The position numbers and the translations under genes were made by a program. 64,000 nt of DNA from a methane-oxidizing endosymbiont of Gigantopelta aegis. GTDB taxonomy: Bacteria > Pseudomonadota > Gammaproteobacteria > Methylococcales > Methylomonadaceae. Positions 33,823-56,924 of the stretch are shown here, piece by piece. The notes below the pieces were generated by a model. That model was not told the DNA's origin, did not search any database, and saw only the letters and a list, made by a program, of their open reading frames with translations. The stretch spans positions 2,055,232 through 2,119,231 of the forward strand of contig NZ_JAEHGD010000001.1 in assembly GCF_016097405.1 (NCBI RefSeq), read 5' to 3'. Within the stretch, counting starts at the first letter, position 1, and each line of letters begins with the position of its first letter.

Positions 33823-35325
33823 GTAACCGTTCACACCCTTATAACCGCTTGCTGCTCAGGGATAGGTAAGCGGTAAGAGACTTGGCCATCTGTCAGACCC
33901 TGAGTGCAAATCGTTCTGAGGGTTTGATACAGATTAAGCCCTAACCGTCTACAGGTCTCGATCACGGACAAGATCATCGGCCGAAACTGATCGCCGCGGT
34001 GTGATTGACTGAAAAAACTGATTTTCCGCCAGATAACATAAGGGCGCAACGACCTCTCCGCGGCATTGTTGGTCAGCGGCACACCGGGATGGTCCAGAAA
34101 GGTCCAGAGCCTTGGAAAATCCTTTAGCAGTTTGCGGCAGCTGTTGCCGGTTTTGGTTTTTCCATGGATGAGTGCGCTCTGTTCCAGTTGGGTTTTGAGG
34201 CGTTGACGGAGCTTTTCCAGTCGCTGTCGATAATGCTGGCTTTGATAGTCGCTTTGTTGCCAGCGTTTGGCGCATCGTACCCTAATCGAGCCAGCCTCAG
34301 CAATTTTTGACCGTCTTTGCCTGCTTGTCCCCGGCGTTGGGCTATTTTTTCCAAGTTACGGATGATATGCGCCCAGCAATATTGGTGTTTATTGGCTGCA
34401 TAGTCGTTGTAAGCACCATGGCGGTCGGTGACTAAGACGCCATTGAAGTTGCCGAGTAAAGCGTTGGCCGCGCCTTTACCGCGCGAATAGTGGGTCAGAA
34501 AGTAGGCGGCCTGGTCGGTGGATAAGGACCAGAGCCAGTAGGTGCTGCGATTCCGGTAGTGTCGGGTTTCATCGGCATAGCCGAGATTCGCGGCACGAAC
34601 CGCTTCACCGATTTGTTGATAGACGGGGCCAGCCAGTCATTGAGCTTTTTCTGGCTTTGGCTGATAGCTCCTAAACTGAAGGTCAGGCCCCATTGTTCCT
34701 GGAGCAGACTTTCAATCTGTCTTAAGGTCAGGTGGTAACGGCCATTTATCAGGTTGATCCAGGCAATCAGACCCGGCCCCATTTGGCCGGCAGGAACGGC
34801 GTCGGGCAGATGGGCTTTATGGTGCTGTCCACAGCGTTGACAACAACCTGCGTAGCACTGATGTTCGGTGACTTCATAGCGCACTTCAGGTAAATCAAAA
34901 ACTTGATGGCGTTGGTAACGATTCTATCTGGACTGTTCCACCACAACCACAGACTGCATGCGGATAGTAGCGCTTGATGTGGTCGACCTGGTCTTCGGGC
35001 AATAACGTCCGTTCGTGCTTTTTGTGGCCCGTCTGCGCCCCTTTTTTACGCCCCGTCGGGGTTTTGCGGTGGCGTTCCGCGCGTTTTTAGGGCTGTCTTG
35101 TGAGGGCGGTGCTGAGGAATTGTCGGAACCATTATTTAATTGTTCCTCCAGTTCCTCTTTCCAGATTTGGAGTTGCCTAATCGCTTCCCACAACGTCAAA
35201 ATCACCTGGTGAGACTCTTCTAATGTCTCAGGCAAAGGTGGCGGTTGGGTGAAATCCAGTGGGAGTTTGCTCATACACGAATTTTCTGATTTTTGGGTGG
35301 TTTGGCAAGTGTTGTGAACGGTTAC
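33823..35325 (-). mobile_element. IS66-family element inside the Beta-family gene
   Basis: The terminal repeats are GTAACCGTTCACA at 33823 and its inverse TGTGAACGGTTAC ending at 35325. Both sides are flanked by seven A's, consistent with the 8-bp target duplication of IS66 if one A is missing. The 1503-bp size with only a tnpC-like gene points to the ISBst12-type subgroup without tnpA and tnpB. Confidence 0.85.
33831..35274 (-). pseudogene. IS66-family transposase (TnpC), multiply frameshifted
   Basis: The frame starts MSKLPLDFTQPPPLPETLEES, has a leucine-zipper-like and SSAPPSQDSPK linker, a zinc-finger region (CYAGCCQRCGQHHKAHLP) and the DDE region (GLIAWINLINGRYHLTLRQIESLLQEQWGL). The C-terminal MPLTNNAAERSLRPYVIWRKISFFSQS is characteristic. 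At least three frame changes separate these parts, so the copy cannot make a full protein as read. Confidence 0.85.
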
Positions 35326-38610: not shown

Positions 38611-38663
38611 TTTTTGTCTCCTGATTTAAAATTTCCTAGGCGACAGGTATGTTGACATAGGGG

Positions 38664-39018
38664 AACATCAGGGAATATCAATGGCACGACGACTGTGAGT
38701 AATACATTGGTTGATTTGGCCGCAGCAGGTATTAAAAATCACCCGGTTGGCGCTTTGGGGATGACATTGGCCAGAGGTGCAGATTATGTATTAAACCTTG
38801 AATTGCAGGCTTTGGAAAATAATGGAAAAGGAGAAGTGTTGGCTAACCCTAGAGTCATGACGATCAATCGGGAGAAAGCGATTATTAAGCAAGGGGTACA
38901 AATCCCTTTATCAAACGGTCAGTCAGAATAATTGATGCGGTATTGGTACTCAAACTCAGTTAATTGATGCGGTATTGGAACTGAATGTTACGCCACAAAT
39001 TACACCGAGTGGCGAGGT
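38664..39018 (+). pseudogene. pilQ: Secretin (PilQ-type) gene, internal fragment
   Basis: The frame NINGTTTVSNTLVDLAAAGIKNHPVGALGMTLARGADYVLNLELQALENNGKGEVLANPRVMTINREKAIIKQGVQIPL is part of the secretin core of type IV pilus PilQ, the outer-membrane pilus pore. A short repeat (AATTGATGCGGTATTGG, at about 38930 and 38961) breaks the frame. It then continues LIDAVLELNVTPQITPSGEV up to an IS5-type fragment. The N-terminal part is missing at the IS3 junction. Confidence 0.75.
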
Positions 39019-39526
39019 ACGGCTTTTGGTAATTGGAATGCGGTATATAAACGATTCAATGACTGGTCTCGTAAAGAAAAACTGATGGGTATTTTTAACG
39101 CCTTGGTTGTTGATCCAGACCTGGAATGGGAATTTATTGATGGGAGTATTGTGAAAGCACATCAGCATAGTAGTGGTGCGGCCTGTGAACAAGAAACAGC
39201 GATAGGGAAATCTGTCGCCGGGAACACCAGTAAAATTCATATGGCCGTTGATGCCTGTGGTCTTCCTATTCATTTCTCAGTGACAGGCGGCGAAGTTCAT
39301 GACTGTAAAGAAGCACCGAAATTAGTTGCAGAGCTCCCAAAAGGTGACTATATAGTTGCTGACAGAGGCTATGACAGTGAAGCATTACGTCTTCAAATTA
39401 AAGACAAAGGGCTGTTCCTGTTATCCCAAGAAAAAAGAATTCAACTCGGGGAAATGATGAAATGGATTGGTGTCTCTACAAATATCGCCATCTCGTTGAA
39501 AATGTGTTTGCAAGACTTACAGCCCC
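39019..39526 (+). mobile_element. Partial IS5-family (IS427-like) element in the pilQ remnant
   Basis: This is the same element as at 36578-37194 but in the opposite orientation and without its left end. Its transposase reads FGNWNAVYKRFNDW through VADRGYDSEALR, then after one frame change RKKNSTRGNDEMDWCLYKYRHLVENVFARL. The right end CAGCCCC is followed by TA. The transposase cannot be made in full. Confidence 0.85.
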
Positions 39527-39726
39527 TAGTCAGGGATGGTGAAACAGTTGTACTAGGCGGGGTTTATGAGCAGAATGAAGCCAATCAAATTTATAAAGTA
39601 CCTTTCTTTGGTGACTTACCTGGCGTAGGCTTTCTGTTCAGGAAAAAAGAAGTAAGCGATAACCGTACAGAACTATTGATATTTATTACGCCTAAGATTA
39701 TTAAGAAAACATTGATAATCAATTAG
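39527..39726 (+). pseudogene. pilQ: Secretin (PilQ-type) gene, 3' end
   Basis: The frame LVRDGETVVLGGVYEQNEANQIYKVPFFGDLPGVGFLFRKKEVSDNRTELLIFITPKII is the highly conserved C-terminal end of PilQ secretins. About 50 residues between this and the SGEV of the preceding fragment are absent, replaced by the IS5-type piece. A good terminator follows. Confidence 0.8.
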
Positions 39727-39807: not shown

Positions 39808-40503
39808 ATGCATATTTTATTAGTTTCTTCAGCATTGGGAAATTTATCCAGCACCTCCCAACACCTCGCCATTGATGGCGAGGATGAAAAGGAGCAATAT
39901 TTTCTTAAAGAAAACCTTGTCCTTCAGGGCGAGGTGCTGGATTTATCGGCTTTTAAATTATTTCAAGGCTTGAAGGGAGTTACACTACATGAGACAGACA
40001 AACTGGAGCATCTGTCAGGAGCCGATGCCAAGCCTGATTTGATTGTGTTTGATGCTGCAATGGGAATGGAGAATATTAGCCAGCACGTTCAGCAAAAACA
40101 CATGGCTAAATGGGTAGTGCTTGATGTTGCAGACATACAGCAAGCTTTACATTATTTGCAGTTAGGCGCATCGGGTATTTTAACGCAGCCTAGCGAGGCG
40201 GCAATATCAAAGTGTTTACAGACTATAGCAGAAGAGCAGATATATTTAGACGCTGATTTCGTCCAAATTTTGGCGTTGCGACAAATAAAAAAAATGTTAC
40301 TGCCTTTTAAGCATCTCACCGCCCGGGAATATGATGTTTTTTGTCTGTTAGCTGAGGGCTATTCCATTCAAACAATTGCAACGCTATTGTCGATAAGCCC
40401 TAAAACAGCCTTCAATTGTCAGGCGCAATTGAGAAAAAAACTTGCTGTTAGAACGCAGCAAGATATCTTTGCATTTGCAAAAAAACATGGACTTGTCAAA
40501 TGA
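39808..40503 (+). CDS. LuxR-type DNA-binding protein with pseudo-receiver domain
   Basis: A 231-residue protein. The N-terminal half looks like a receiver, but it lacks the usual acidic pair (HILLVSSALGN rather than ILLVDDH) and the conserved lysine (GASGILTQPS rather than GAKGYLxK). A candidate aspartate remains in LIVFDAAMGM. The C-terminal LuxR-type helix-turn-helix (HLTAREYDVFCLLAEGYSIQTIATLLSISPKTAFNCQAQLRKKLAV) is intact and resembles the two other regulators of this region. Codons 14-45 contain a palindromic insertion. It is likely a phosphorylation-independent regulator near the methanol genes. Confidence 0.75.
   Translation: MHILLVSSALGNLSSTSQHLAIDGEDEKEQYFLKENLVLQGEVLDLSAFKLFQGLKGVTLHETDKLEHLSGADAKPDLIVFDAAMGMENISQHVQQKHMAKWVVLDVADIQQALHYLQLGASGILTQPSEAAISKCLQTIAEEQIYLDADFVQILALRQIKKMLLPFKHLTAREYDVFCLLAEGYSIQTIATLLSISPKTAFNCQAQLRKKLAVRTQQDIFAFAKKHGLVK
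39846..39942. repeat. Palindromic element inside the LuxR-type gene
   Basis: ATCCAGCACCTC (39846-39857) and GAGGTGCTGGAT (39931-39942) are perfect inverted arms. A second perfect hairpin, CCTCGCCAT and ATGGCGAGG with a TG loop (39864-39883), is nested near the left arm. The 97-bp unit lies in the receiver-like part of the gene and keeps the frame open. Confidence 0.75.
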
Positions 40504-40528: not shown

Positions 40529-40539
40529 GGAATTTTTCC
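40529..40539. promoter_or_regulatory. GGAATTTTTCC palindrome before the PepSY gene
   Basis: This 11-bp near-palindrome is 39 bases before the PepSY ATG. The same type of site occurs at 44215, 46536, 46569 and (shorter) 46593, all in regulatory gaps of the methanol region. Confidence 0.45.
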
Positions 40540-40578
40540 TGTTTTTTAATATTCATTTGTATTTTCGGGAGATGAGCT

Positions 40579-41100
40579 ATGAATAAATCAATTATCAATG
40601 GTGCATTGATTATCGCCTTTGGCGCTTCGTTTAGCGTACAGGCTGGTGACAATGGCTTGGAAAAATGTATCGCGGATATTCAAGCACAAAAATCAGGCGA
40701 TCTGGTGAAGCTGGAAAAGCTCAATGTCAAAGGCAAAGCGGTTTATGAAATAGAGCTTAAAGATGCCAATGGTTTCGAATGGGAATATATGTGCGATGCC
40801 AATAGTGGCAAAATCTTTGAAACCGAATCAGAAGTTAGCTCACCTAATAGCCTTGCTTTCAAAAGCAAAATGAAAGTGACAGAAGAAGATGCCAAAGCAA
40901 CGGCTTTAAAAGCCTATCCGGGCGTTGTTGAAGAAGTGGAATATGAAGTTGAAGCAAACGGTGATACGAGTTATGAGTTTGATATTGTAGACAGCAAAGG
41001 CGTTGAAACAAAAGTGGAAGTCGATGCTGCAACCGGAAAAATCACCGAGGTTGCCATTGAAGAATGGGAAATCGGCGAAGAAGCGGACGAAAGAAGATAA
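40579..41100 (+). CDS. Secreted PepSY-domain protein
   Basis: A 173-residue protein with a signal peptide (MNKSIINGALIIAFGASFSVQAG) and two PepSY-like units: GLEKCIADIQAQKSGDLVKLEKLNVKGKAVYEIEL...GKIFE and VTEEDAKATALKAYPGVVEEVEYEVEAN...DAATGKITEV. PepSY domains inhibit peptidases or bind ligands in the periplasm. The protein is very acidic. It stands between the LuxR-type gene and a convergent YVTN gene. Its function here is unknown. Confidence 0.85.
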   Translation: MNKSIINGALIIAFGASFSVQAGDNGLEKCIADIQAQKSGDLVKLEKLNVKGKAVYEIELKDANGFEWEYMCDANSGKIFETESEVSSPNSLAFKSKMKVTEEDAKATALKAYPGVVEEVEYEVEANGDTSYEFDIVDSKGVETKVEVDAATGKITEVAIEEWEIGEEADERR

Positions 41101-41124
41101 CTTTCCATACTTTTTGGGTTTCTT

Positions 41125-41148
41125 AGGTTAGGCTTTAAAGCCTAACCT
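41125..41148. terminator. Bidirectional hairpin between PepSY and YVTN genes
   Basis: The perfect 24-bp palindrome begins AGGTTAGGC and ends GCCTAACCT around TTTAAA. It lies between two convergent genes. Confidence 0.75.
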
Positions 41149-41157
41149 GCCTTCTAT

Positions 41158-42111
41158 TTATTTGATGACCAGCCCCCAAGGGTAACGCCCGACTGCAATT
41201 GAACGGATCACTTTCATTTTATCGAGATCGATAATGGAAATATCATTACTGACGCCATTAGTGGTGTACACCTTTTTCTGATCAGGAGAAAATGCCAGGT
41301 TCCAGACGCGTTGCCCCACCAAAAAATACTTTTCCACTTCTAATGATTGTGCATTGATCAACGCGACGCGATTAGCGGGGCCTAATGCCACTAACGCCCA
41401 TTGATTAGTGTTGTCGACAATGACGCCAACGGGCTGAATTTTGTCATCACTTACCCCCGGAATCGAAAATTGAATGGTTTTAATCTTCTTATGGCTGATG
41501 GTATCGAGCACCGTAACGGTTCCACCGAGTTCAGAGGTTACCCAGAGTCGTTGACTATCCGCGCTAAAACTTAACCCTCTAGGGCGCGGATCGACCAATG
41601 TATTATCTTCAACCGTCAATGTTTCCTGCTTAATCCAATGCACCATATTGGTGGCTTCAGAGGCACTCACAACCCATTTCTCATCAGGGCTGACCGCGAC
41701 AGGTTCGGGCTCTACACCGACAGGGATGGTTTTAATGGCTTTGGCCTGCTTAATGTCAATCACCGTGACCAGGCTGTCATCTTCATTTGAGACATAAAGC
41801 CTGTCACCCGCTGGATTGATGGCAAAGGTTTCAGGGTCTTCCCCTGATGGCAAGTAGCCTACGGGTTTTAATGTTTGGGTATCGATGATTTGGATAATAT
41901 CATCGTCACTGGTGGCGATATAGAGCTGTTGCCGATCCTTGCTGAGGACGATGCCTCGCGGGCGCTGGCCGATAGCGACTGTTTTTAAAAGTTTGCCGGC
42001 GACAGGGTCGACAACAGCCAGAGCATTATCTTTTTCCAGGGTGACATAGACGGTCTCGGCATTGACCTGACTGCTGATTAAAAATAACAATGTCACTAAA
42101 ACTCGCTTCAT
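41158..42111 (-). CDS. Secreted YVTN-repeat beta-propeller protein (PQQ-catabolism associated type)
   Basis: A 317-residue protein with a signal peptide (MKRVLVTLLFLISSQVNA) and about seven YVTN-type blades (for example GKLLKTVAIGQRPRGIVLSKDRQQLYIATSDDD and AIKTIPVGVEPEPVAVSPDEKWVVSASEA). Proteins of this type accompany PQQ-dependent alcohol oxidation genes, and the role may be metal or electron-transfer related; none is proven. It is transcribed away from the histidine kinase gene. Confidence 0.85.
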   Translation of the reverse strand: MKRVLVTLLFLISSQVNAETVYVTLEKDNALAVVDPVAGKLLKTVAIGQRPRGIVLSKDRQQLYIATSDDDIIQIIDTQTLKPVGYLPSGEDPETFAINPAGDRLYVSNEDDSLVTVIDIKQAKAIKTIPVGVEPEPVAVSPDEKWVVSASEATNMVHWIKQETLTVEDNTLVDPRPRGLSFSADSQRLWVTSELGGTVTVLDTISHKKIKTIQFSIPGVSDDKIQPVGVIVDNTNQWALVALGPANRVALINAQSLEVEKYFLVGQRVWNLAFSPDQKKVYTTNGVSNDISIIDLDKMKVIRSIAVGRYPWGLVIK

Positions 42112-42203
42112 GGTCTCTCTTGTATCGTGTTGGAACAGTGTGTCAAGATAGCACTTTTTGGTTTGTGGCTGACGTTATGGTTATAAATAAGGAAATTTTC
42201 CCA

Positions 42204-43511
42204 ATGAGTTTGCGTTACCAAATCAGTATCAGAATTCTGGTGATTTCGCTGTGTATTCTGTTGCTAGGCGGCTCTATCGGTATTTGGCAGGCACGACAAT
42301 CGGTCAAAAAAGAAGTGGATTCATCCATTCATCTGGCATTACAACTAATCAAACTTGGCATGGATGCGAATAAAGCCAATCAAACGGACTGGATGTCGAG
42401 GTTGAGTCATTTGGATCAAACACGGCATTTAAATATCCAGCTTAAAATGTCATCCGGGAAGTTGATCAATATTTCAGGACATTCTCAACGACAAAAGACT
42501 GATGATATGCCGCCTGACTGGTTTGTTCGCTTAGTTCTCAGCGATTACCCGATAGTGGAATATCCGATTAAAACGTCGAATAACGGGACATTGACGCTGC
42601 TTATTAAAGCCAATCCAATGGATGAAATTTCGGAAGCCTGGCAAGAAAGTATCGCCTTTTTTATCACACTATTTGCGCTTGTTTTGCTGACATTTCTTTC
42701 TGTTCAACTGGTGTTCAATAAAACCATCAAGTCTATCCATGCGATTATTGAACATCTCAAAGGCATCGAAAAAGGCGATTATCAAAAGAAACTAGCTGAT
42801 TTTTCGACACGGGAATATGATGACATCGCCAAGGCGATCAATCATATGACCGATGTGCTGAACAAGACAGAGCAACAGAACCGCGCTTTGACGCAACATT
42901 CGCTGGAGATTCAGGAAGACGAGCGCCAGCGTCTGTCTCAGGATCTGCATGATGAGTTTGGTCAGTCATTGACGGCGCTGAAAGTGATGGCTGTAACCGC
43001 TGCCCATGATAAAACAGATACCCAAAAAATTACGGCCTCCATGATTGAAATCTGTGATCACTTGATGGCGGTTGTGCGTTCGATGATGAAGCAATTACAC
43101 CCTTTGATATTGACAGAGCTGGGTTTGAAAGCGACGTTGGAGGATTTACTTCATCACTGGGAAGTCAGGCATGCACATACTGTGTTTACCTTGCATTATG
43201 AGGATGCGGTGGACCAACTAGAGCAAAGTGTTATGATACAAATTTTTCGTGTGATTCAGGAAAGTCTGACCAATATTATCCGTCACGCCCACGCCAGTCA
43301 GGTCGATATCAGCCTTCGTATCAAGCCGGATTCAGATACACTGGTGTTATCGATTATTGATGACGGAGTAGGCTGTGATCTTGAGCAAGTCTCATCTGGG
43401 TTTGGGCTCTTGGGTATGAAAGAAAGAATTACCCTCTTAGGAGGTCGTTTTGAAATACAGTCCGAAAATAACAAAGGCCTAAAAATCACGGCAGAAATTC
43501 CATTGACATGA
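42204..43511 (+). CDS. mxaY: MoxY-like sensor histidine kinase (NarX type)
   Basis: A 435-residue membrane kinase when started at ATG 42204 (MSLRYQISIRILVISL), which lies after AAGGA; the longer frame has no fitting start. It has membrane segments at about residues 8-28 and 150-175 flanking a short periplasmic LapD/MoxY-type domain. A HAMP linker (to about 245), a HisKA_3 helix with the phosphoacceptor in SQDLHDEFGQSLTAL, and an ATPase domain with DDGVGCD and GFGLLGMKERI follow. It overlaps the response regulator gene by four bases. Related MoxY/MxaY kinases control methanol dehydrogenase expression. Confidence 0.85.
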   Translation: MSLRYQISIRILVISLCILLLGGSIGIWQARQSVKKEVDSSIHLALQLIKLGMDANKANQTDWMSRLSHLDQTRHLNIQLKMSSGKLINISGHSQRQKTDDMPPDWFVRLVLSDYPIVEYPIKTSNNGTLTLLIKANPMDEISEAWQESIAFFITLFALVLLTFLSVQLVFNKTIKSIHAIIEHLKGIEKGDYQKKLADFSTREYDDIAKAINHMTDVLNKTEQQNRALTQHSLEIQEDERQRLSQDLHDEFGQSLTALKVMAVTAAHDKTDTQKITASMIEICDHLMAVVRSMMKQLHPLILTELGLKATLEDLLHHWEVRHAHTVFTLHYEDAVDQLEQSVMIQIFRVIQESLTNIIRHAHASQVDISLRIKPDSDTLVLSIIDDGVGCDLEQVSSGFGLLGMKERITLLGGRFEIQSENNKGLKITAEIPLT

Positions 43512-44152
43512 ATACGAAAATAAAGGTTTTGCTGGTCGATGATCATGCCGTAGTCAGAGCTGGTTTTAAATTATTGCTGGCTACGTCCTCAAATATAGAA
43601 GTGATTGCAGAAGCCGAGCGCGGTGAACAAGCGATTCATATCTGTCAGTCCAGCCGGCCAGATATTATTGTGATGGATTTATCCATGCCTGGCATCGGCG
43701 GCCTGGAAACAATCAAACGCCTGGTGCAACGTGATGAAAAAATCAAAATTCTGGTGTTCAGCGTGCATGATGAGCAGGTTTATATTGCCCGTGCCTTAAA
43801 TGCAGGCGCAAAAGGCTATATCAGCAAAAATAGTGCGCCGGAAATTTTAGCCGAGGCGATAGAAGCTATTGATAAGGGGCAGATCTATGTAGAAGAAGGT
43901 TTGCTTAAACAAAGCAGCGCAGATAATTCAGAGCATGATTTTCAAGGCATTATAGAAACATTTTCGGCGCGGGAATTTGATGTTTTTCGCTTATTGGCCA
44001 AAGGTTTGACTGTGCATAAGATTGCTGATGAATTATGTTTAGGCTATAAGACAGTGGCAAATTATGCTACGCAAATCAAGAAAAAACTACAGGTTTCCAG
44101 TAGCGCTGAATTAGCACATATTGCAATCGTATTGGGGATTATGAAGCATTGA
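43508..44152 (+). CDS. NarL-type response regulator paired with the MoxY-like kinase
   Basis: A 214-residue protein. The receiver has the acidic pair in LLVDDHAVVRAG, the phosphoacceptor in IIVMDLSMPGIGGLE and the lysine in AKGYISKNS. The LuxR-type helix-turn-helix is FSAREFDVFRLLAKGLTVHKIADELCLGYKTVANYATQIKKKLQV. The ATGA overlap with the kinase gene shows the pair is translated together. It resembles MxaB/MxaX-type regulators and the divergent regulator at 45818. Confidence 0.88.
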   Translation: MNTKIKVLLVDDHAVVRAGFKLLLATSSNIEVIAEAERGEQAIHICQSSRPDIIVMDLSMPGIGGLETIKRLVQRDEKIKILVFSVHDEQVYIARALNAGAKGYISKNSAPEILAEAIEAIDKGQIYVEEGLLKQSSADNSEHDFQGIIETFSAREFDVFRLLAKGLTVHKIADELCLGYKTVANYATQIKKKLQVSSSAELAHIAIVLGIMKH

Positions 44153-44214
44153 TCCGAATGCTATGCACGCTTCAACTTAATCTACCATCGGCACTGTGGG
44201 TAAGATTGGAATAA

Positions 44215-44225
44215 GGAAAAATTCC
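44215..44225. promoter_or_regulatory. GGAAAAATTCC palindrome before mxaD
   Basis: A member of the recurrent GGAA(W)nTTCC site family, 80 bases upstream of the mxaD start. Confidence 0.45.
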
Positions 44226-44305
44226 GGTGTCTACGCAAGAATACTTCCCGTTACAAGTCTCTGTTTAATCATTGATAATGCCCAATTTTCAATTAGGGGT
44301 TATGT

Positions 44306-44827
44306 ATGAATTTAAGCAGATTATTCCTTGTTTTTCTGTCTATCATGTCGATGACAGCCTATGCCCACGGTCCTACACCGAGGAAAGTGGATAAAAGTAT
44401 TGTGATCGATGCGCCTATTGAAAAGGTTTGGGTGGTGGTCAAGCAGTTTGATCGGATTGCTGATTGGCATCCCGATGTTCTTGCCAGTGAAGGCGATGGA
44501 AAAAACCAATCGGGCAGCGAGCGCCGCTTGACGCTGAAAACGGGAATATTGACCGAAGGCCTTGATTATATCAGTGATGCCGATCATGAATATAATTACC
44601 GTTTGAGTAAGGAAAATACCGATGCTTTTCCGGTCAGTTCGTATTCGGCGGCTATCCAGTTAGTTGCCGAAGGAGACAAAACAAAAGTCAAATGGAAGAG
44701 TCGTTTTTACCGCGGCGATACCAGCAACAATCCACCTAAAAGATTGAATGATGAAGCGGCAGTTAAGGCCATGAATCAGTTTGTTCAAAACGGCCTGGAA
44801 GGATTGAAAAAGGCAGTAGAAAAATAA
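44306..44827 (+). CDS. mxaD: MxaD-like periplasmic SRPBCC protein
   Basis: A 173-residue protein with a signal peptide (MNLSRLFLVFLSIMSMTAYAHG) and an SRPBCC fold (KVDKSIVIDAPIEKVWVVVKQFDRIADWHPDV...SSYSAAIQLVAEGDKTKVKWKSRFYRGD). This matches MxaD, a periplasmic protein that helps electrons pass between methanol dehydrogenase and cytochrome cL. In other methylotrophs mxaD lies after mxaL; here it is apart, ahead of a YVTN gene that starts one base after its stop. Confidence 0.82.
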   Translation: MNLSRLFLVFLSIMSMTAYAHGPTPRKVDKSIVIDAPIEKVWVVVKQFDRIADWHPDVLASEGDGKNQSGSERRLTLKTGILTEGLDYISDADHEYNYRLSKENTDAFPVSSYSAAIQLVAEGDKTKVKWKSRFYRGDTSNNPPKRLNDEAAVKAMNQFVQNGLEGLKKAVEK

Positions 44828-44828
44828 A

Positions 44829-45782
44829 ATGTTTCGGTCGTTTCTTGTCCTGATGCTGCTGGTCTGTTCAAATTTTGCGACAAGTGGCGATTATTTTTAT
44901 ATTAACCAGCAGCAGGGGGAGAGTGTTAGTGTGTTTGGACGCTCTGATCTGTCATTCAAAACGCGCATTCCAACGCTTGAAGGCCCGGCAGGCATTGCTA
45001 TTAACCCACATCAGCCCTGGTTTGCCGTGACTTATCCGGAACAAGGACTGATCAGTTTTGTAGATAGCCAGAAGCTGATTCCGTTGGAGCATATTAGTGT
45101 AGGTGGCAGTCCTTTTGGGGCTGTTTTTGCTAAGCGTTATCTTTTTTACACCGACTGGAGTGGGAATTTGGTTGGCGTCATTCACCCAGGTAGTGGGCGC
45201 ATCATAAAAAAAATAGCCGTTGGTCAGTCGCCAGCCGGAATAGCGACAGAGCCTTGTGAATCCCAAGTGTGGGTGCTCAACAGGGAAAGTGACAGTGTCT
45301 CAGTAATAAATACGGAAAGTCTTGATGTCATTAAAACCATCCGTGTTGGGCGGGCGCCTTTTGCCTTGGCAATTGATGATAAGGTTGCCTATGTCGTCAA
45401 TTCACAAAGTAATACCGTGAGTGTTGTCGATGTCGTCAATTTAACCGAAATCAAGCAGATTAAAGTCGGGCGAATGCCTTATGGAGTTGCGATAGACAGG
45501 AAACAGCGTAAGGTCTATGTCAGCAATCAATTGGAAAATAGTGTGAGTGTGCTGGACGCCCAAACGCATAAACTCGTCCATGTTCTAAAAACAGGCGCCT
45601 ACCCTGAAAATATCGCAGTTGATGAAGAAAATCAGCACTTACTGGTGTTGAACTGGTTTGATGGCAGTCTGAGTGTATTCGATACACAAACCAATACGGC
45701 AATAAAGCGCATCAATATCGGTGCGGGCAGTCGAGCTTTCGGTCAGTTTGTGGATCAGCCTCGTGTATGCGCGAAGCCATAA
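44829..45782 (+). CDS. Second secreted YVTN-repeat beta-propeller protein
   Basis: A 317-residue protein with a signal peptide (MFRSFLVLMLLVCSNFATSG) and seven repeats such as GRIIKKIAVGQSPAGIATEPCESQVWVLNRESDSVSVIN and LTEIKQIKVGRMPYGVAIDRKQRKVYVSNQLENSVSVLD. It is only distantly like the YVTN protein at 41158. The gene follows mxaD by one base, so the two are co-transcribed and probably act in the same periplasmic step. The role is unknown. Confidence 0.85.
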   Translation: MFRSFLVLMLLVCSNFATSGDYFYINQQQGESVSVFGRSDLSFKTRIPTLEGPAGIAINPHQPWFAVTYPEQGLISFVDSQKLIPLEHISVGGSPFGAVFAKRYLFYTDWSGNLVGVIHPGSGRIIKKIAVGQSPAGIATEPCESQVWVLNRESDSVSVINTESLDVIKTIRVGRAPFALAIDDKVAYVVNSQSNTVSVVDVVNLTEIKQIKVGRMPYGVAIDRKQRKVYVSNQLENSVSVLDAQTHKLVHVLKTGAYPENIAVDEENQHLLVLNWFDGSLSVFDTQTNTAIKRINIGAGSRAFGQFVDQPRVCAKP

Positions 45783-45805
45783 ATCTGGAGAGAATGTGTG
45801 GGGGG

Positions 45806-45830
45806 GGGTTGAAAAAACTATTCAACCCCT
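45806..45830. terminator. Bidirectional terminator between the YVTN gene and the divergent regulator
   Basis: GGGGTTGAA (45806-45814) and TTCAACCCC (45822-45830) form a 9-bp stem followed by TAATTTTT. A run of nine G's starts at 45801. The hairpin overlaps the last codons of the convergent regulator gene. Confidence 0.7.
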
Positions 45831-46480
45831 AATTTTTCAGACTTTATCAATCCCTGGCGGGTTGCCAGTAGGGTGAATTCGGCAATTGTTTTAACCGCCA
45901 GTTTTTCTTTAATGGTTGTGCTGTGATTGCACACTGTCTTATAGCTCAAATGAAGCTTTTCTGCGATTTCGCGCGGGCTGTTGCCGTTAGCCAACAAGCA
46001 AAAAACATCGAATTCACGCGGGGATAGAAGTTTAATTTTTGATTCATCATTTTGTTCAGTGATCATGTTAACCGCGAGCTGCTGTGCCAGTGTTGCATCA
46101 ATATAGGTCTTGCCTTGGGCGATAGAGCAGACAGCCGTTACCAAGGTTTCTGGCACGCTGCTTTTGCTGATATAGCCTTTAGCGCCTGATTTGATCGCGC
46201 GGGTAGCGTAAATCGGCTCGTTGTGAATGCTGAAAACCAGAATTTTACACTGTGGGGCGCGGCTAATCAGGCGTCTGATACACTCTAGTCCGCCCATGCC
46301 CGGCATGGATAAATCCATTACCACCACATCAACCGGTTGTTGGATATAGTGTTGACAGGCTTGCTCACCACTATCGGCTTCATAAATCGCGCCTATTTTA
46401 TCTGAGAGCGATAAGTAAGACTTATAGCCTTCTCGGACTACTGCATGATCGTCAACTAATAACACGCTGATTTTGGACAT
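45818..46480 (-). CDS. mxaB: NarL-type response regulator, MxaB-like
   Basis: A 220-residue regulator with a complete receiver (LLVDDHAVVREGY, VVVMDLSMPGMGGLECI, AKGYISKSS) and a LuxR-type helix-turn-helix (LSPREFDVFCLLANGNSPREIAEKLHLSYKTVCNHSTTIKEKLAV). It is transcribed away from mxaF across a gap of about 250 bases, the usual place for an mxa-specific regulator, so mxaB is a reasonable name. Its kinase may be the MoxY-like one at 42204. It probably binds sites in the shared upstream gap. Confidence 0.8.
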   Translation of the reverse strand: MSKISVLLVDDHAVVREGYKSYLSLSDKIGAIYEADSGEQACQHYIQQPVDVVVMDLSMPGMGGLECIRRLISRAPQCKILVFSIHNEPIYATRAIKSGAKGYISKSSVPETLVTAVCSIAQGKTYIDATLAQQLAVNMITEQNDESKIKLLSPREFDVFCLLANGNSPREIAEKLHLSYKTVCNHSTTIKEKLAVKTIAEFTLLATRQGLIKSEKLGVE

Positions 46481-46535
46481 GACAAATCACTTAAAAAAGT
46501 AAATATCATGAATAAGTCGAGCCTTAAAAGATATA

Positions 46536-46602
46536 GGATATTTTCCTTTTTGCATGATGCCGTTATTAGGAATTTTTCCCAGGTGAAAACAAGGATAATT
46601 CC
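46536..46602. promoter_or_regulatory. Three GGAA/TTCC-type palindromes between mxaB and mxaF
   Basis: GGATATTTTCC (46536-46546), GGAATTTTTCC (46569-46579) and GGATAATTCC (46593-46602) lie in the divergent gap. The first two centres are 33 bases apart, about three helical turns, which suits a regulator binding one face of the DNA. They may serve the adjacent LuxR-type regulators. Confidence 0.5.
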
Positions 46603-46733
46603 GTATTCGAGCAACTGCTGGATCCATAGAATAGCCATCAAGCATTTGCCAGTTTCAGTTAGTTTGATCAGAGGCTCTTGATACACAGTGATGGCAAATG
46701 CTTTCAAATAAAAAAATCAATCAGGAGGAGTTC

Positions 46734-48545
46734 ATGCAGATTAAAAAATTTGCTCGGAATATCGGAACGACGATGCTCGTTTCCAGTGCAATTTTTGCCG
46801 TATCCCAGCAAGCCAGTGCAAACAAGAAATTAGAAGCCTTGTCAAAGCAAAATACGAATTGGGTGATGCAGACCAAAGATTACAGTGCTACCCATTTCAG
46901 TAATATGTACCAGATTAATATCCAAAATGTCCATAAGCTGAAACCGGTCTGGTCATTCTCTACAGGCGTATTGAATGGGCACGAAGGCGGGCCTTTGGTG
47001 GTTGACGGGATTATGTATATTCATTCGCCGTTTCCCAACAATGTGTTTGCGCTGGATTTAGACGAGCCGGATAAAATCTTGTGGGAATATAAACCGAAGC
47101 AAAATCCAGCAGCACGCGCGGTGGCCTGCTGTGATGTAGTCAATAGAGGTCTAGCCTATGCACCAGGGACTAAGGATTATCCGCCGACGATTTTTTTGAA
47201 TCAATTAGATGGTCATATTGTGGCGATCAATGCCAGAACCGGGAAAATGATCTGGAAAATGGAGAACTCGGATATTGCCATGGGTTCAACATTAACCTCA
47301 GCGCCCTTTGTGGTTAAGGATATGGTGATTGTCGGCAGTGCTGGAGCTGAGTTGGGTGTGCGGGGCTATGCGACGGCCTACAGGATTAAAGACGGCTCGC
47401 AAGTATGGCGGGTTTATGCCACAGGGCCGGATGAAGATATAGGGATTGGAAAAGGATTTAATAAAGATAACCCTCATTACGGCCAGTTTAACTTAGGCAC
47501 TAAAACCTGGGAAGGCGATGCCTGGAAAATTGGTGGCGGAACGAACTGGGGCTGGTATGCCTACGATAGTGATCTGGAAATGATTTATTACGGTTCAGGC
47601 AATCCTGCGCCGTGGAATGAAACCATGCGTCCCGGAGATAATAAATGGACCATGACCATTTGGGGGCGGGATGTCAATACTGGTAAAGCTATCTTTGGCT
47701 ATCAAAAAACACCGCACGATGAATGGGACTATGCCGGTGTGAACTATATGGGCCTGTCTGAGCAAATGGTCAACGGAAAAATGACTAAATTGCTGACCCA
47801 TCCCGACAGAAATGGCCTGGTTTATACGCTGAACCGTGAAAATGGTGACTTAGTCAATGCATTCAAAATCGACGACACCGTCAACTGGGTTAAAAAGGTC
47901 GATTTAAAAACCGGTCTTCCGATTCGAGATCCAGAGTATTCAACCCATATGGATCATGAGGCAAAAGGAATTTGTCCATCTGCGATGGGCTATCACAATC
48001 AGGGTATTGAATCGTATAACCCCGTTACCAAGACATTTTTCATGGGAGTCAATCATATCTGCATGGACTGGGAGCCGTTCATGCTGCCTTATCGAGCGGG
48101 TCAGTTTTTTGTCGGTGCAACGCTGAATATGTATCCGGGGCCGAAGGGTGTCTTAGGTCAAGTGAAAGCCATGGATTCGGTAACGGGAGAAATGAAATGG
48201 GAAATTCCAGAAAAATTTGCCGTTTGGGGTGGAACATTGGCAACAGCCGGAGATTTGGTTTTCTATGGCACATTAGATGGCTATATCAAAGCGCTTAACT
48301 CAAATACGGGTGAGGAGCTTTGGAAATTCAAATTGCCTTCTGGTGTGATTGGTCATCCGATTACCTATAAGCATAATGGGAAACAATACATTTCCATTTA
48401 CTACGGTGTCGGTGGCTGGCCGGGTGTCGGCTTGGTGTTTGACTTGCAAGATCCGACTGCGGGTTTGGGCGCTGTGGGTGCATTTAAGGAATTGGCACAT
48501 TACACGCAAATGGGTGGCGGTGTTATGACTTTTGCACTGGACTGA
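46734..48545 (+). CDS. mxaF: Methanol dehydrogenase large subunit MxaF (calcium/PQQ type)
   Basis: A 603-residue precursor started at ATG 46734, behind the strong ribosome site AGGAGGAG; the longer frame lacks one. The signal peptide ends at SQQASA. The protein is an eight-blade PQQ propeller. The adjacent-cysteine disulfide is in RAVACCDVV, and the catalytic aspartate is in DEWDYAGVN (about residue 332). The residue two positions on is alanine, as in MxaF; lanthanide-dependent XoxF has aspartate there. It oxidises methanol to formaldehyde in the periplasm with MxaI, passing electrons to cytochrome cL. First gene of mxaFJGIR.... Confidence 0.97.
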
Positions 48546-49630: not shown

Positions 49631-51020
49631 CATAAGCGCCAACTTAAGCCATTAAATCATTGATTACGTGTTGAAAAATAAAGGTGTGGCCACCACATAG
49701 AGTCTTTTGCCGACAAAAGTGAAAACCCTATGAAAAAGCAGCCACCTCACATAGATACTCGTTTTGAACAATTTGTGCAAGAACTTCCAGAAGATTATCA
49801 ACAACAAGCCTATGAATTTAAAGCCTTCACGCGTGCGCGCAAGATCCGTTCGCCCTTACAACTGTTACAGTTGGTGATGCTCTACTGTGGTCTGGATTTC
49901 TCCTTGCGGAGTTGCGCCGGCGAGGTGGCTCACTTACAGGGCTACCTGAGTGATACGGCGGTAAAAAAGACTGGCGGCCTGCGTTCCTTGGGTAAAATCC
50001 TTGCTATCGGGCGTATTTGGGTTGCATCAGGTGGTTGACAGTGGTTCATTAAGCTTCGTTATTATTGATGGCTCGACCGTGCAGGAACCCGGTGCGACAG
50101 AAACCACGTATCGGCTACATATCGCGATAGATTTGATTTCACTGACATTGCGCCAGGTTGAAGTCAGTACGGACAAGATTGGCGAAAGCCTTGACCATTA
50201 TGTGCTGGAATCGGGCGATGTCGTGTTGATTGATCGTGGCTACAATCAACCGAAGTCGTTGGTGCCTTTATTGACCGAGGTGGCGATATTGTGCTGCGCT
50301 ATAACGCACACAGCATGAATTTATACGAGCTTGACGAGCACGGCAAAATGATAAAAATTGACTGGGAAACGAAATTACAACGTCTCGGGAAACAAGCGGG
50401 GCTATTCCGGTTTATTTGTGCCATGATACTAAACGAATCGCCTGCACGGTACATGCGGTTCCGTTACCTGCCGAAAAAGCGGCGCAAGCCCGGCGTAAAG
50501 CGAAACTCAGAGCGCAGAACAAAGGACGTACAGCCCAGGAAAAAAACGCTCTATCTCAGTGAATGGGTCTTAATTTTAACGTCCGTGCCGGTCGAGTTGC
50601 TCAGCACCGAAACGGCTGCCGCGCTCTATCGTGTACGCTGGCAGGTGGAATTGGTGATCAAACGGCTGAAAAGCCTGTTGGCGATCAATCAATTACGTGC
50701 CCGTAAAGACAGTCAATTGGCCGAATTGTATTTACAGGGCAAACTTCTGTATGCGGTGGTTACGGAAAAGATCGCGCAGCGGTGTTTTACCAAGGCCTTG
50801 ACGAAAATGGATGGGCCGCGTGCATTGACACCCTGGCGTTTGTATAAAACGATTGCTGAGGACATTAAATCAGGATTGAACGCCTGTTTTCCGAAGCAAG
50901 AACGCTTTCAACGTGATTATTTGAAAAGCGTAGCGAAGAAAACGTTCGTTGCACGCTGATTTTGGGAATGATTCGACAATGAGAAAATCAAGTGGTTGGG
51001 GGCTTAAGTTGGCGCTTATG
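49631..51020 (+). mobile_element. IS4-family element, copy 2, inside mxaG
   Basis: The 1390-bp element has perfect 20-bp terminal inverted repeats, CATAAGCGCCAACTTAAGCC (49631-49650) and its inverse (51001-51020). The 11-bp sequence GGGGGATACGC flanks it on both sides (49620-49630 and 51021-51031), the expected duplication size for part of the IS4 family. Clean ends and a perfect duplication indicate recent insertion. Copy 1 is at 30087. Confidence 0.95.
49730..50959 (+). pseudogene. IS4-family transposase, frameshifted (copy 2)
   Basis: The same protein as copy 1, but the frame breaks at several runs: six A's at about 49964 against five, three T's against four near 50268, four G's against five near 50399 and seven A's against six near 50540. 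The final frame ends at 50959 with KTFVAR. As read it cannot make a full transposase. Confidence 0.88.
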
Positions 51021-51031
51021 GGGGGATACGC

Positions 51032-51366
51032 CAGCATTCAAAGAGTTTATGAAGGATGGTAAAAACCCCTATAACACCGATAAAAAAGCCATTGAAGAAG
51101 GTGAAAGTCTTTTTATGACTGGCTGCTCAGGCTGTCATGGGCATGAGGCCGAAGGCAAGCTCGGGCCAGGGCTGGCCGATGACTACTGGACCTATCCTAG
51201 CATTGCAACGGACAAGGGTTTGTTTGAGCTGTTGTTCGGTGGCGCGAAAGGCATGATGGGCCCTCAGTATGTCAATTTCAATACCGATGAAATGCTAAAA
51301 ATTATGGCCTGGATACGCTCAATTTATAAAGGTAGTCCGAAAAAGGCCAAGTGGCTGAAAAAATAA
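51032..51366 (+). pseudogene. mxaG: mxaG (cytochrome cL), 3' part with the haem site
   Basis: After the duplicated target, the frame resumes as PAFKEFMKDGKNPYNTDKKAIEEGESLFMTGCSGCHGHEAEGKLGPGLADDYW. CSGCH is the haem c site, and the ending GAKGMMGPQYVNFNTDEMLKIMAWIRSIYKG is typical of cytochrome cL, the direct electron acceptor of methanol dehydrogenase. Without the signal peptide this part would not be exported or matured. mxaI follows by 15 bases and might lose transcription from mxaF through polar effects. Confidence 0.9.
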
Positions 51367-51381
51367 TTCAGGAGACGCAAT

Positions 51382-51663
51382 ATGAAAAAACACCTGTTAT
51401 CTATCGCTGTTTTATTGACAGCATCCGTATCGTTGACCGCGCAAGCGTATGACGGCACAAATTGTAAAGAACCTGGAAATTGCTGGGAGCCTAAACCGGG
51501 CTATCCTGCCAAAGTGGCGGGAAGCAAATATGACCCTAAGCATGATCCTAACGAACTGAATAAACAAGCCGCCTCGATCAAAGAAATGGAAGCGCGTAAT
51601 AAAAAGCGTGTTGCCCATTTTAATGCAACGGGTACGTTTGTTTATGACGTGGATGAGCTTTAA
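51382..51663 (+). CDS. mxaI: Methanol dehydrogenase small subunit MxaI
   Basis: A 93-residue precursor with a signal peptide ending at LTAQA and a mature part beginning YDGTNCKEPGNCWEPKPGYPAKVAGSKYDPKHDPNELNKQ, the conserved MxaI sequence. The small subunit wraps around MxaF in the alpha2beta2 enzyme; XoxF enzymes have none, which supports the calcium-type assignment. The lysine-rich end (NKKRVAHFNATGTFVYDV) is normal. A strong ribosome site AGGAGA precedes the ATG. Confidence 0.97.
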   Translation: MKKHLLSIAVLLTASVSLTAQAYDGTNCKEPGNCWEPKPGYPAKVAGSKYDPKHDPNELNKQAASIKEMEARNKKRVAHFNATGTFVYDVDEL

Positions 51664-51774
51664 GACACCTCATCCGACAAGATCCTTCTTGTCACCAAAA
51701 GGTATAGATAGCGATATTTATCCCTTTCTGAAATGGCTTGGCTATTTCAGTAAAGACTAATATTAGTGTATTCG

Positions 51775-51819: not shown

Positions 51820-52833
51820 TTGAATAATCAACTCAGCGATTGGCGAAATCTAGCCCTTGAATTTGAGCAACAAATAAACCAGACGCTTTTAGGCCAGCGA
51901 CAAGCCGTCAGACACTGTGTCATTTCTGTTTTTGCACGCGGGCATGTTTTGCTGGAAGGTAATGTCGGCGTTGGGAAAACTACTTTGTTACGCGCGATAG
52001 CGCAAGGATTAGGTGGCAATTATCAACGCATTGAAGGAACGATCGACTTGATGCCGGCCGACTTGATTTATTACACCTATTTAGATGATAAAGGCAAGCC
52101 GCAGGTTGACCCAGGCCCTTTGCTCAAACAAGGCGAGAATCTGGCAACTTTCTTCTTTAACGAAATAAACCGTGCGCGTCCTCAGGTGCATTCTTTGTTG
52201 TTAAGAGTGATGGCAGAAAGAAGTATCAGTGCCTTTAATCAGGAATATCGATTTCCGCATGTTCAGGTCTTTGCCGATAGAAACCGGATAGAACGAGAGG
52301 AAACCTTTGAATTACCCGCCGCTGCCCGCGACCGCTTTATGATGGAAATCAATATCGACATGCCGGCAGATGAGGCGTTATTGAAAGAATTGATGTTCAA
52401 TCCTCGTTTTCACGATACTGACTCGTTAATCAGTGGTGTGAAAACGGGCACTATTGCTTACTATCAATTGAATGAATTGGCACAACTGATTCAGCAAACG
52501 ATACAGCCAACAGCGGCATTGAAAAATTATGCGCTGGACTTATGGACAGCGACTAAAAATCCTAAAAAATACGGAATTACATTATCCGATGTGGAAATGG
52601 AGCAGCTCATTATGTCGGGCGCTAGCCCCAGAGGAATGAGTTTTTTGATTCGCGCTGCAAAAGTGAATGCCTGGCTGGAAAACAGGGAAACGTTGTTGCC
52701 TGAAGATTTGCAGGCGGTATTTAGGGTGACTATGGCACATCGGATTTTTTTGAACCCAATATACAGTTATCGGCAAGAGCAACTGTTGCCAGAATTGATC
52801 TCAGGCATTGTGGAAAGCGTCGCCGCGCCTTAA
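51820..52833 (+). CDS. mxaR: MoxR-type AAA ATPase MxaR
   Basis: A 337-residue AAA+ ATPase with Walker A in GNVGVGKTTLLRAIAQ, a Walker B-like TFFFNEINRARPQ, and FELPAAARDRFMMEI as sensor region. MxaR is the MoxR prototype and works with the von Willebrand proteins in inserting calcium into methanol dehydrogenase. The start is a TTG, since no ATG or GTG lies nearby in frame. It begins the second mxa transcript after a terminator. Confidence 0.93.
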   Translation: MNNQLSDWRNLALEFEQQINQTLLGQRQAVRHCVISVFARGHVLLEGNVGVGKTTLLRAIAQGLGGNYQRIEGTIDLMPADLIYYTYLDDKGKPQVDPGPLLKQGENLATFFFNEINRARPQVHSLLLRVMAERSISAFNQEYRFPHVQVFADRNRIEREETFELPAAARDRFMMEINIDMPADEALLKELMFNPRFHDTDSLISGVKTGTIAYYQLNELAQLIQQTIQPTAALKNYALDLWTATKNPKKYGITLSDVEMEQLIMSGASPRGMSFLIRAAKVNAWLENRETLLPEDLQAVFRVTMAHRIFLNPIYSYRQEQLLPELISGIVESVAAP

Positions 52834-56364: not shown

Positions 56365-56924
56365 TAAGAGTTGCTCGTTTTTATGCCGGTTGGGGAGGAT
56401 TGTTGATCGCTTTGGTGGTTACTTTGCAAAGTAGCTATGCCTATTTTCAAATAATCCATATCAATCAATTGATTACTCAATTAAATCAAGGCAAAGCCAT
56501 CACGCCCGCGTTATTGAAAAATACGGCGCCTGAATTACAGTTGGCGTATGCGGGTTATCTGAAAAAGAAACACCGTTATCAAGATGCGCAAGTGGTTTTG
56601 GGTAGAATCATCAATCAAGGTAGCCGACATATACAAACGATAACACGCTATAACCTGGGTAATCTCTACTTATCGGAAGCCATTGAATTGGCTGAAGCGA
56701 TGCAGATCAACGAGGCCATGGCGTTGTCTGCCCTGGCTAAACAAGCCTATCGACAGGCTTTAGCATTGGACAGTCAGTATTGGGATGCCAAATATAATTT
56801 GGAAGTAGCCATGCGTTTGTTACCCGAAATGGATCGCATCACCCTGGAACAGGATGAGCCTATTCCGGAGAAAAAAACCAAGCTTTGGGCAACGGTGCCT
56901 GGTTTCCCGCGGGGGTTGCCATAA
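56361..56924 (+). CDS. mxaK: MxaK, membrane-anchored TPR-like protein
   Basis: A 187-residue protein with one N-terminal membrane segment (WGGLLIALVVTLQSSYAYF) and helical TPR-like repeats (ALLKNTAPELQLAYAGYLKKKHRYQDAQVVL, ALAKQAYRQALALDSQYWDAKYNLEVAMR). It fits MxaK, which sits between mxaC and mxaL and is needed for active enzyme. It overlaps mxaC by four bases and is three bases from mxaL. Confidence 0.83.
   Translation: MIRVARFYAGWGGLLIALVVTLQSSYAYFQIIHINQLITQLNQGKAITPALLKNTAPELQLAYAGYLKKKHRYQDAQVVLGRIINQGSRHIQTITRYNLGNLYLSEAIELAEAMQINEAMALSALAKQAYRQALALDSQYWDAKYNLEVAMRLLPEMDRITLEQDEPIPEKKTKLWATVPGFPRGLP

Follow-up and report, generated by a model that had tools for sequence, protein, structure and literature searches.

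Which DNA element could allow one regulatory system to raise mxaF, the gene for the large subunit of the Ca-dependent methanol dehydrogenase, and to lower xoxF when lanthanides are absent? The genetics of such a switch are published (statements on cited work refer throughout to excerpts of the texts): without La, the sensor kinase MxaY raises mxaB and mxaF and lowers xoxF, phosphorylation of MxaB by MxaY being left open (PMC5018670); La lowers the mxa genes and mxaB in strain 20ZR (PMC6277846), and Ce lowers mxa and MCA0776-0778 in M. capsulatus (PMC10728633). We analysed a 64-kb stretch of the genome of a methane-oxidizing endosymbiont of Gigantopelta aegis (contig NZ_JAEHGD010000001.1, positions 2,055,232 to 2,119,231; hereafter the window) and studied positions 40529-46602 (~6 kb) of it, where the palindrome GGAAWWWTTCC, considered in this exact form and in the looser form GGA-N5-TCC, recurs before genes. 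In our judgement it is likely to serve as operator for two NarL-type response regulators that belong to the MxaY system, MxaB and a second protein termed RRb, activating mxa and blocking xoxF. Judged from sequence comparison, it is probably a new operator candidate, for regulators of a known type, and the predicted missing cis-element of the lanthanide switch. Genomes and loci are numbered with G and L (the window belongs to G000, a genome of 2.93 Mb), f1 and f4 denote the two families compared, and the ORF at 46734-48545 is the one that we take to be mxaF.

The palindrome at the mxaB-mxaF promoters

An earlier note on this DNA had listed five copies in gaps before genes and a sixth on the kinase ribosome site, and reading the sequence confirmed all of them (40529, 42191, 44215, 46536, 46569 and 46593), each in an intergenic gap. 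The cluster of three copies between mxaB and mxaF, with 46536 and 46569 lying 33 bases apart, is equally real, and the copy at 42191 does overlap the Shine-Dalgarno region of the kinase gene, given a kinase start at 42204; the alternative is a longer ORF reading with a start at 42090. The copies differ in quality: GGATATTTTCC (46536) has one mismatch to GGAAWWWTTCC, and GGATAATTCC (46593) is a 10-bp version with a spacer shorter by one. A weaker copy, AGAATACTTCC at 44238-44248, was absent from the note and scores slightly below an unrelated place at 34208 (8.95 bits).

With one mismatch allowed, the whole window holds nine copies at an expectation of 7.6, and 34 of 100 shuffles reach as many. 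This is what would be seen if the copies were accidental, i.e. AT-rich gaps with occasional GGA/TCC ends. Since a raw count without excess proves nothing by itself, we turned to where the copies lie and whether they are conserved. The notion of an mxa motif held up in a genome-wide scan, in which the exact palindrome occurred 17 times in 2.93 Mb (reversed-pattern control, 9) and four of the 17 fell within these 6 kb. Eleven of the remaining 13 copies lie within mechanically called ORFs, one (C2:523851) among transposase pieces and one (C2:1191055) in the gap before a secretin-like gene, the last two being unexplained by our model. The copy at C2:1191055 (L056) is a perfect AGGAATTTTTCCT, 243 bases before the ORF, which was called secretin-like from its translation. 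Exact copies also outnumbered the reversed pattern in relatives (40 vs 8 in G056, 29 vs 7 in G031 and 31 vs 10 in G028); these totals were not taken as regulon counts because 30 of the 40 G056 copies lie within mechanically called ORFs.

A 17-bp matrix was derived from 43 sites in 29 regions of relatives, the window being excluded. Over the 64 kb it gave six positions of at least 14 bits (40529, 46536, 42191, 46569, 4642 and 44215), five of which are the 11-bp sites listed before, the sixth, 4642, lying within an ORF; the 10-bp site at 46593 is not scorable by a matrix of this length.

MxaB-like matches were found in 101 of 101 genomes (own included), and 30 loci, own included and nearly the best matches, were taken for comparison. 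In 24 of these 30 (23 of 29 besides the own locus) mxaF diverges from mxaB within the 1.5-kb flank. A motif-free search for inverted repeats with gaps of 0-16 in the 30 mxaB-upstream regions ranked GGA-N5-TCC first: 45 copies in 29 of the 30 regions, compared with a maximum of 20 regions over 50 shuffles. The motif thus recurs in the mxaF and mxaB upstream regions of relatives, one of the tests by which the earlier note had proposed to judge it. It is kept at mxaF even where this gene stands apart from mxaB (G055, G031 and G006), and in nine of ten f4 loci, in which a kinase-regulator pair is divergent from mxaF, it occupies the gap between them.

For the geometry, 24 mxaF promoters were anchored on a TTC(C/T)GTA half-site followed by TAnnnT within 22-36 bases. 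In all 24 the half-site lies 28 or 29 bp before the TAnnnT box. The mean matrix score peaks at positions centred 47, 24 and 2 bases before the anchor, i.e. at intervals of 23 and 22 bp (z 3.8, 3.5 and 3.1), which corresponds to about -42, -65 and -87; the proximal peak sits at the anchor used and is hence partly built in, and the -10 boxes and starts are predicted. Full palindromes are centred at -41.5/-42.5 in three promoters, at -63.5 to -65 in three and at -86 to -88 in nine, and the peaks at fixed spacing indicate that most mxaF sites are partial matches at fixed places. On the mxaB side all 24 promoters carry a palindrome, 18 of them at -114 to -131. Taking 46639 as +1, the window's mxaF sites are centred at -41.5, -65 and -98; the 46536 site lies 31 bases before the CATGAT box, which places it, by hand, near -43 of mxaB. 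What is directly observed in this way comprises the sequence, its conservation, the neighbouring genes and the location with respect to conserved -10-like boxes.

Further candidate target genes and the sites at xoxF

Specificity for methylotrophy genes was assessed in 200 bases of upstream sequence (250 for f4 mxaF) with 60 shuffles per sequence, counting the regions above the 95% shuffle level. The motif passed this level before 16 of 19 genes for an SRPBCC-fold protein (G032 entering twice), 13 of 20 f1 kinase genes and 15 of 21 xoxF genes, vs none of 13 mxaJ and one of 23 RRb genes, in agreement with what the earlier note had expected. Further regions behaved similarly (f4 kinase, 9/10; f4 mxaF, 8/10; two more f1 mxaF, 2/2, that of L083 being omitted since its contig ends 76 bases upstream; YVTNa, 4/6), as did further controls (f4 RRb, 0/10; YVTNb, 1/4). 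A chance origin would fit the one-mismatch count given above; it is contradicted by conservation, spacing and gene specificity across the two families, and we regard it as negligible.

In the promoter of the window's SRPBCC gene, a GATAAT box is preceded by two sites at a distance of 23 from each other, and similar blocks were seen by eye in relatives. In the f1 kinase relatives the motif is further upstream than in the window. The place of the 40529 site is kept in L079, where the order is a homologue of the LuxR-type gene at 39808, the site and the PepSY gene.

A family of TonB receptors, putatively of the LanA type, was first met through an intergenic copy in G056. Using L203:3-1439 as query, 26 genomes were searched and two with only weak matches dropped; the motif was present in 24 of 24 upstream regions, 23 of them above the 99% level, with a median of 18.3 bits. 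Upstream of the receptor in the window's genome it scores 8.0 bits vs a 95% level of 6.0. Ten of the exact G056 copies are intergenic: two precede a 1034-aa receptor, one lies in a TonB/ZIP gap and one before xoxF, so that four adjoin TonB receptor or xoxF genes; two others precede a 409-aa repeat protein, one lies in an SRPBCC/AraC gap and three are near other genes. As a separate observation, L187 8337-10035 (G056 C1:178971-180669) contains two double operators, with copies 37 bases apart, which precede the 1034-aa TonB receptor and the 409-aa repeat protein; the latter had no match in Pfam or NCBIfam.

The xoxF promoters show, by eye, a TTGAC(A/T) -35 and an AAATTT-like -10, and the palindrome tends to lie where it could obstruct them. 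It is good and downstream of the -10 in L145, L146, L147 (about +13 to +23, by hand) and L149, weaker and downstream in L150, L151, L153, L156, L157, L158 and L161, and overlaps the core promoter in L148, L152, L155 and L160. We also scored 17 further xoxF regions from genomes without an MxaB match above 64% identity, of which seven reached at least 7.6 bits. The motif co-occurs with mxaB and with the f4 regulators, and some genomes with MxaB carry an xoxF without it. It reaches beyond the window, to relatives' xoxF and the TonB receptor. Other regions are less consistent, the PepSY gene being preceded by it in one of four relatives and xoxF of the window's genus in none.

A second palindrome, ACTAATATTAGT, was noticed in the xoxF leaders (e.g. 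L141-L161), where it occurs in 33 of 39 xoxF loci. It is present in only three of 224 other loci (L047, L050 and L205), again xoxF loci, and once in the window, at 51756, in the gap between ORFs 51382-51663 and 51820-52833, which we take to be mxaI and mxaR.

Candidate binding proteins and the proposed switch

The earlier note had offered three LuxR-type proteins as possible users of a shared operator. A GerE domain is indeed present in all three, and a recognisable receiver domain only in MxaB (45818) and RRb (43508), i.e. the combination PF00072 + PF00196 that defines the NarL/FixJ type is found in these two and missing from the protein at 39808. The recognition helices of MxaB and RRb also agree in most of the pattern YKTVxN(H/Y)xTxIKxKL, from which the helix of 39808 differs. 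The RRb gene begins inside the end of the kinase gene, which makes RRb the natural partner of this kinase, and MxaB is a paralogue of RRb. Each of ten f4 loci has a single regulator of this kind next to the kinase; in nine of them mxaF is divergent from it, and in G081 mxaF stands apart; a tree of the response regulators groups the f4 proteins with MxaB at 99/98, its rooting being unsafe because of the very long branches of 39808 and L065_RRb.

The kinase (42204-43511) carries LapD_MoxY_N, HisKA_3 and HATPase_c, as expected of the MxaY/MoxY type. Its residue E37 is invariant in 31 of 31 homologues, and E37K occurs in an mxaY switch mutant of Methylomonas LW13 (PMC5874918). Another published mxaY switch mutant has E147G (PMC5018670); when residues are compared with the published mutants by number, position 147 is Q here and the nearby E144 and E148 are invariant in 31 of 31, and residue 147 was dropped as a test of MxaY identity. 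The protein encoded at 40579-41100 contains two PepSY domains and would thus be LanPepSY-like, LanPepSY being described in PMC12482762.

Could the orphan protein at 39808 bind the sites in place of MxaB or RRb? Its gene adjoins the window's best site (40529), and this order is kept in L079. That is, however, the only one of 20 neighbourhoods (11-18 kb around mxaB) with a homologue, and the protein has no recognisable receiver and a different recognition helix; we consider this explanation very improbable.

Less easily set aside is a real lanthanide or methanol operator bound by another protein, e.g. a global regulator or a metal-responsive repressor whose gene lies elsewhere, with MxaB acting indirectly. 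The motif precedes TonB receptors, which are typical targets of metal repressors, and strong sites occur where the best MxaB match has 48-51% identity (the TonB gene of G013; xoxF of G023, G030 and G037). However, G013, without a close MxaB match, keeps the kinase-RRb pair and G037 has an RRb-like match, the mxaF sites near -42 without a clear -35 look activator-like, the motif accompanies mxaB, mxaF and the kinase operon, and the published loss of MxaY, which like loss of MxaB turns mxaF down and xoxF up, matches the placement of the sites (PMC5018670). Another binding protein is unlikely in our view. The strong sites in genomes with 48-51% MxaB matches, together with the common helix pattern, are the reason for favouring an operator shared by MxaB and RRb, to which the sequence lends support and for which the third LuxR-type protein is not needed. 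From the sequence and the published genetics we infer that these two are the best candidate binders.

For the preferred assignment, an operator of MxaB and RRb, the mechanism that we infer covers the binding protein, its phosphorylation, the start sites and activation versus blocking. A phosphorylated regulator dimer would bind one palindrome, each GGAA arm serving as a half-site. Dimers would be lined up at mxaF at about -42, -65, -87 and beyond, in steps of 22-23 bp, and the proximal dimer, of whose site often only the TTCC half is well kept, would cover the poor -35 region and recruit RNA polymerase. For mxaB and the SRPBCC-protein gene the same site would act from near -43, while the kinase operon, the PepSY gene and the TonB receptor would be driven from additional sites; as long as lanthanide is lacking, this would amount to positive feedback. 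In many relatives the operator at xoxF lies within the core promoter or just past the start, and the same protein, bound there, would prevent transcription. With lanthanide present, the kinase would stop phosphorylating, mxa would fall and xoxF would rise.

Several observations weigh against this mechanism. The xoxF upstream regions of G000, G001, G003, G005, G024 and G032 have no site, ten of the 17 further xoxF regions score under 5 bits, G002 and G004 included, and the window's genus (G000-G005) has no xoxF site in any of six genomes. At mxaF, full palindromes at the fixed places are few (3, 3 and 9 of 24) and the others are partial matches, and in G020 the 350 bases inspected before mxaF contain no TTCCGTA array (best, 8.7 bits). 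Seven of the 20 f1 kinase promoters are without the motif, the window's kinase site sits on the ribosome site, the low PepSY count fits poorly, and the TonB sites seem nearer -58 than -42 (by hand). To this are added the ORF location of most exact copies in G056, start sites that are guesses and relatives that are not independent samples.

Among NarL/FixJ-family operators, the NarL heptamers, the RcsB box and the BvgA sites are short inverted repeats bound by GerE-domain dimers, often in multiple copies upstream of a class II promoter; GGAAWWWTTCC with its 22-23-bp steps differs from them, the RcsB box being most alike. PedR2 of Pseudomonas putida, which we take to be a LuxR-type response regulator, allows a further comparison. 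The PedS2/PedR2 system is alike in combining a regulator and a kinase with opposite control of Ca and rare-earth alcohol dehydrogenases and differs in enzymes and genes, and the terms binding site, motif, inverted repeat and consensus are absent from the excerpted text (PMC6115532); according to a 2024 review, the exact mechanism of the Ped switch remains unknown (PMC11845868). Closer to the window is Methylotuvimicrobium buryatense 5GB1C, in which mxaB is upstream of and divergent from mxaF, the kinase is of the MoxY type, and activator sites at mxaF together with blocking sites at xoxF would be in keeping with the published control of the two genes in opposite directions; 'binding site' and 'transcription start' do not occur in the excerpt, and the operator, its positions, RRb and more targets are proposed here (PMC5018670). 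The mxaXYZ genes of Paracoccus denitrificans (in PMC5018670) include those for a regulator and a kinase, which lie upstream of mxaF and diverge from it as in nine of the ten f4 loci; they are alphaproteobacterial, unlike the loci described here.

The open-access literature searched contained no description of the palindrome or of the mxaF-leader hairpin described below. A defined candidate operator makes the wiring of the lanthanide switch testable and points to RRb as the probable partner of MxaY. It would explain how one protein controls mxaF and xoxF in opposite directions, and it gives a handle on the mxaF promoter, the strongest known in methylotrophic bacteria according to a review (PMC10992012), and on receptors that may take up rare earths.

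Table 1. Predicted regulatory elements and genes of the studied region (window coordinates; bits refer to the relatives' matrix).
Feature	Position	Strand	Remarks
LuxR-type protein	39808-40503	+	GerE only
Operator candidate GGAATTTTTCC	40529-40539		before PepSY (LanPepSY-like) gene; 20.9 bits, window's best
Protein with two PepSY stretches, LanPepSY-like	40579-41100	+	PF03413 x2
PQQ-associated beta-propeller protein	41158-42111	-	TIGR03866
Operator candidate GGAAATTTTCC	42191-42201		between divergent beta-propeller gene and MxaY-type kinase; 18.0 bits
MxaY-type sensor kinase	42204-43511	+	LapD_MoxY_N, HisKA_3, HATPase_c
RRb, NarL-type response regulator	43508-44152	+	PF00072 + PF00196; overlaps kinase gene end
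Operator candidate GGAAAAATTCC	44215-44225		SRPBCC gene promoter, distal, about -66; 14.4 bits
Weaker second site AGAATACTTCC	44238-44248		SRPBCC gene promoter, about -43; 8.7 bits
Predicted -10 box GATAAT of SRPBCC gene	44274-44279	+	(G/A)ATAAT there in most relatives, by eye
SRPBCC-fold protein gene, candidate operator target	44306-44827	+	PF10604
mxaB, NarL-type response regulator	45818-46480	-	PF00072 + PF00196; divergent from mxaF
Predicted -10 box CATGAT of mxaB	46505-46510	-	seen again in relatives, by eye
Operator candidate GGATATTTTCC	46536-46546		about -43 of mxaB (by hand), -98 of mxaF; 18.0 bits
Operator candidate GGAATTTTTCC	46569-46579		about -65 of mxaF; 16.5 bits; at mean-score peak
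Promoter-proximal site GGATAATTCC	46593-46602		centre -41.5 of mxaF; at mean-score peak
Predicted -10 box TAGAAT of mxaF	46627-46632	+	TAnnnT at equal distance in 24/24 promoters
mxaF mRNA leader hairpin	46640-46703	+	covariation in relatives; window copy weak (E 0.26)
mxaF (presumed), Ca-dependent methanol dehydrogenase large subunit	46734-48545	+	ORF; start by Shine-Dalgarno and alignment

The mxaF leader and further observations

A long stem opens the mRNA leader of mxaF. The folding z averaged -2.5 over 24 leaders (range -7.3 to +0.4), with -1.65 for the window. A MAFFT alignment of 20 leaders gave no consensus fold, and a consensus was derived from a subset of 11 leaders, the window's leader not included; this subset was picked after viewing the individual folds and is therefore a selected one. 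Its 16 consensus pairs are 89.8% formed and 10 of them have changed on both sides; none of 500 shuffles reached the paired percentage or the covariation score, two of 500 reached the number of two-sided pairs, and slid versions paired 31.6-39.4%. The loop GATCAAG is kept in 11 of 11 leaders (L024, L031 and L037 are among the relatives with the hairpin).

Searched with E up to 1, a model of this leader gave a single match in each of 11 of the 30 genomes: just before mxaF in G001, G006, G014, G015, G020, G031, G041 and G053, the last belonging to the training set, and also in G021, G055 and, doubtfully, G024 (E 0.5, on another contig than mxaF). At the same limit the six f4 genomes searched gave no match, and neither did G000, G003, G011, G016 and G051, although these five have mxaF. 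The window copy ranks behind an unrelated place at 56721. Rfam gave only a sub-threshold chance match for the window leader and none at the leaders in the 14 loci scanned. The ordinary reading of the hairpin is a putative 5' mRNA-stabilising element.

Taken together with the operator, the hairpin leads to a wider scheme that we put forward tentatively and regard as doubtful in its entirety. One operator and two paralogous regulators, RRb as the direct partner of the kinase and MxaB as a later copy by mxaF, might run the whole lanthanide response of the Methylococcales. Where the site lies would decide the sign: the mxa genes and those for regulators and uptake receptors would be turned on and xoxF turned off. 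The hairpin would add an RNA layer, possibly responding to metal or enzyme assembly.

Several further observations concern mobile elements. Downstream of mxaF, transposase-like ORFs (49730-50959 and 50992-51366) lie between mxaJ and mxaG, and the first 10 residues of the mxaG ORF are unlike those of L061, L062 and L064, so that the start of mxaG, probably with its signal peptide, seems to be cut. On the other side of the studied region (38650-39726), a secretin-like gene appears, by eye, to be broken by transposase sequence, ORF 39085-39726 looking like a secretin-like/transposase chimera. In G001, group II intron matches were found on the far side of mxaB (L020 2283-2850).

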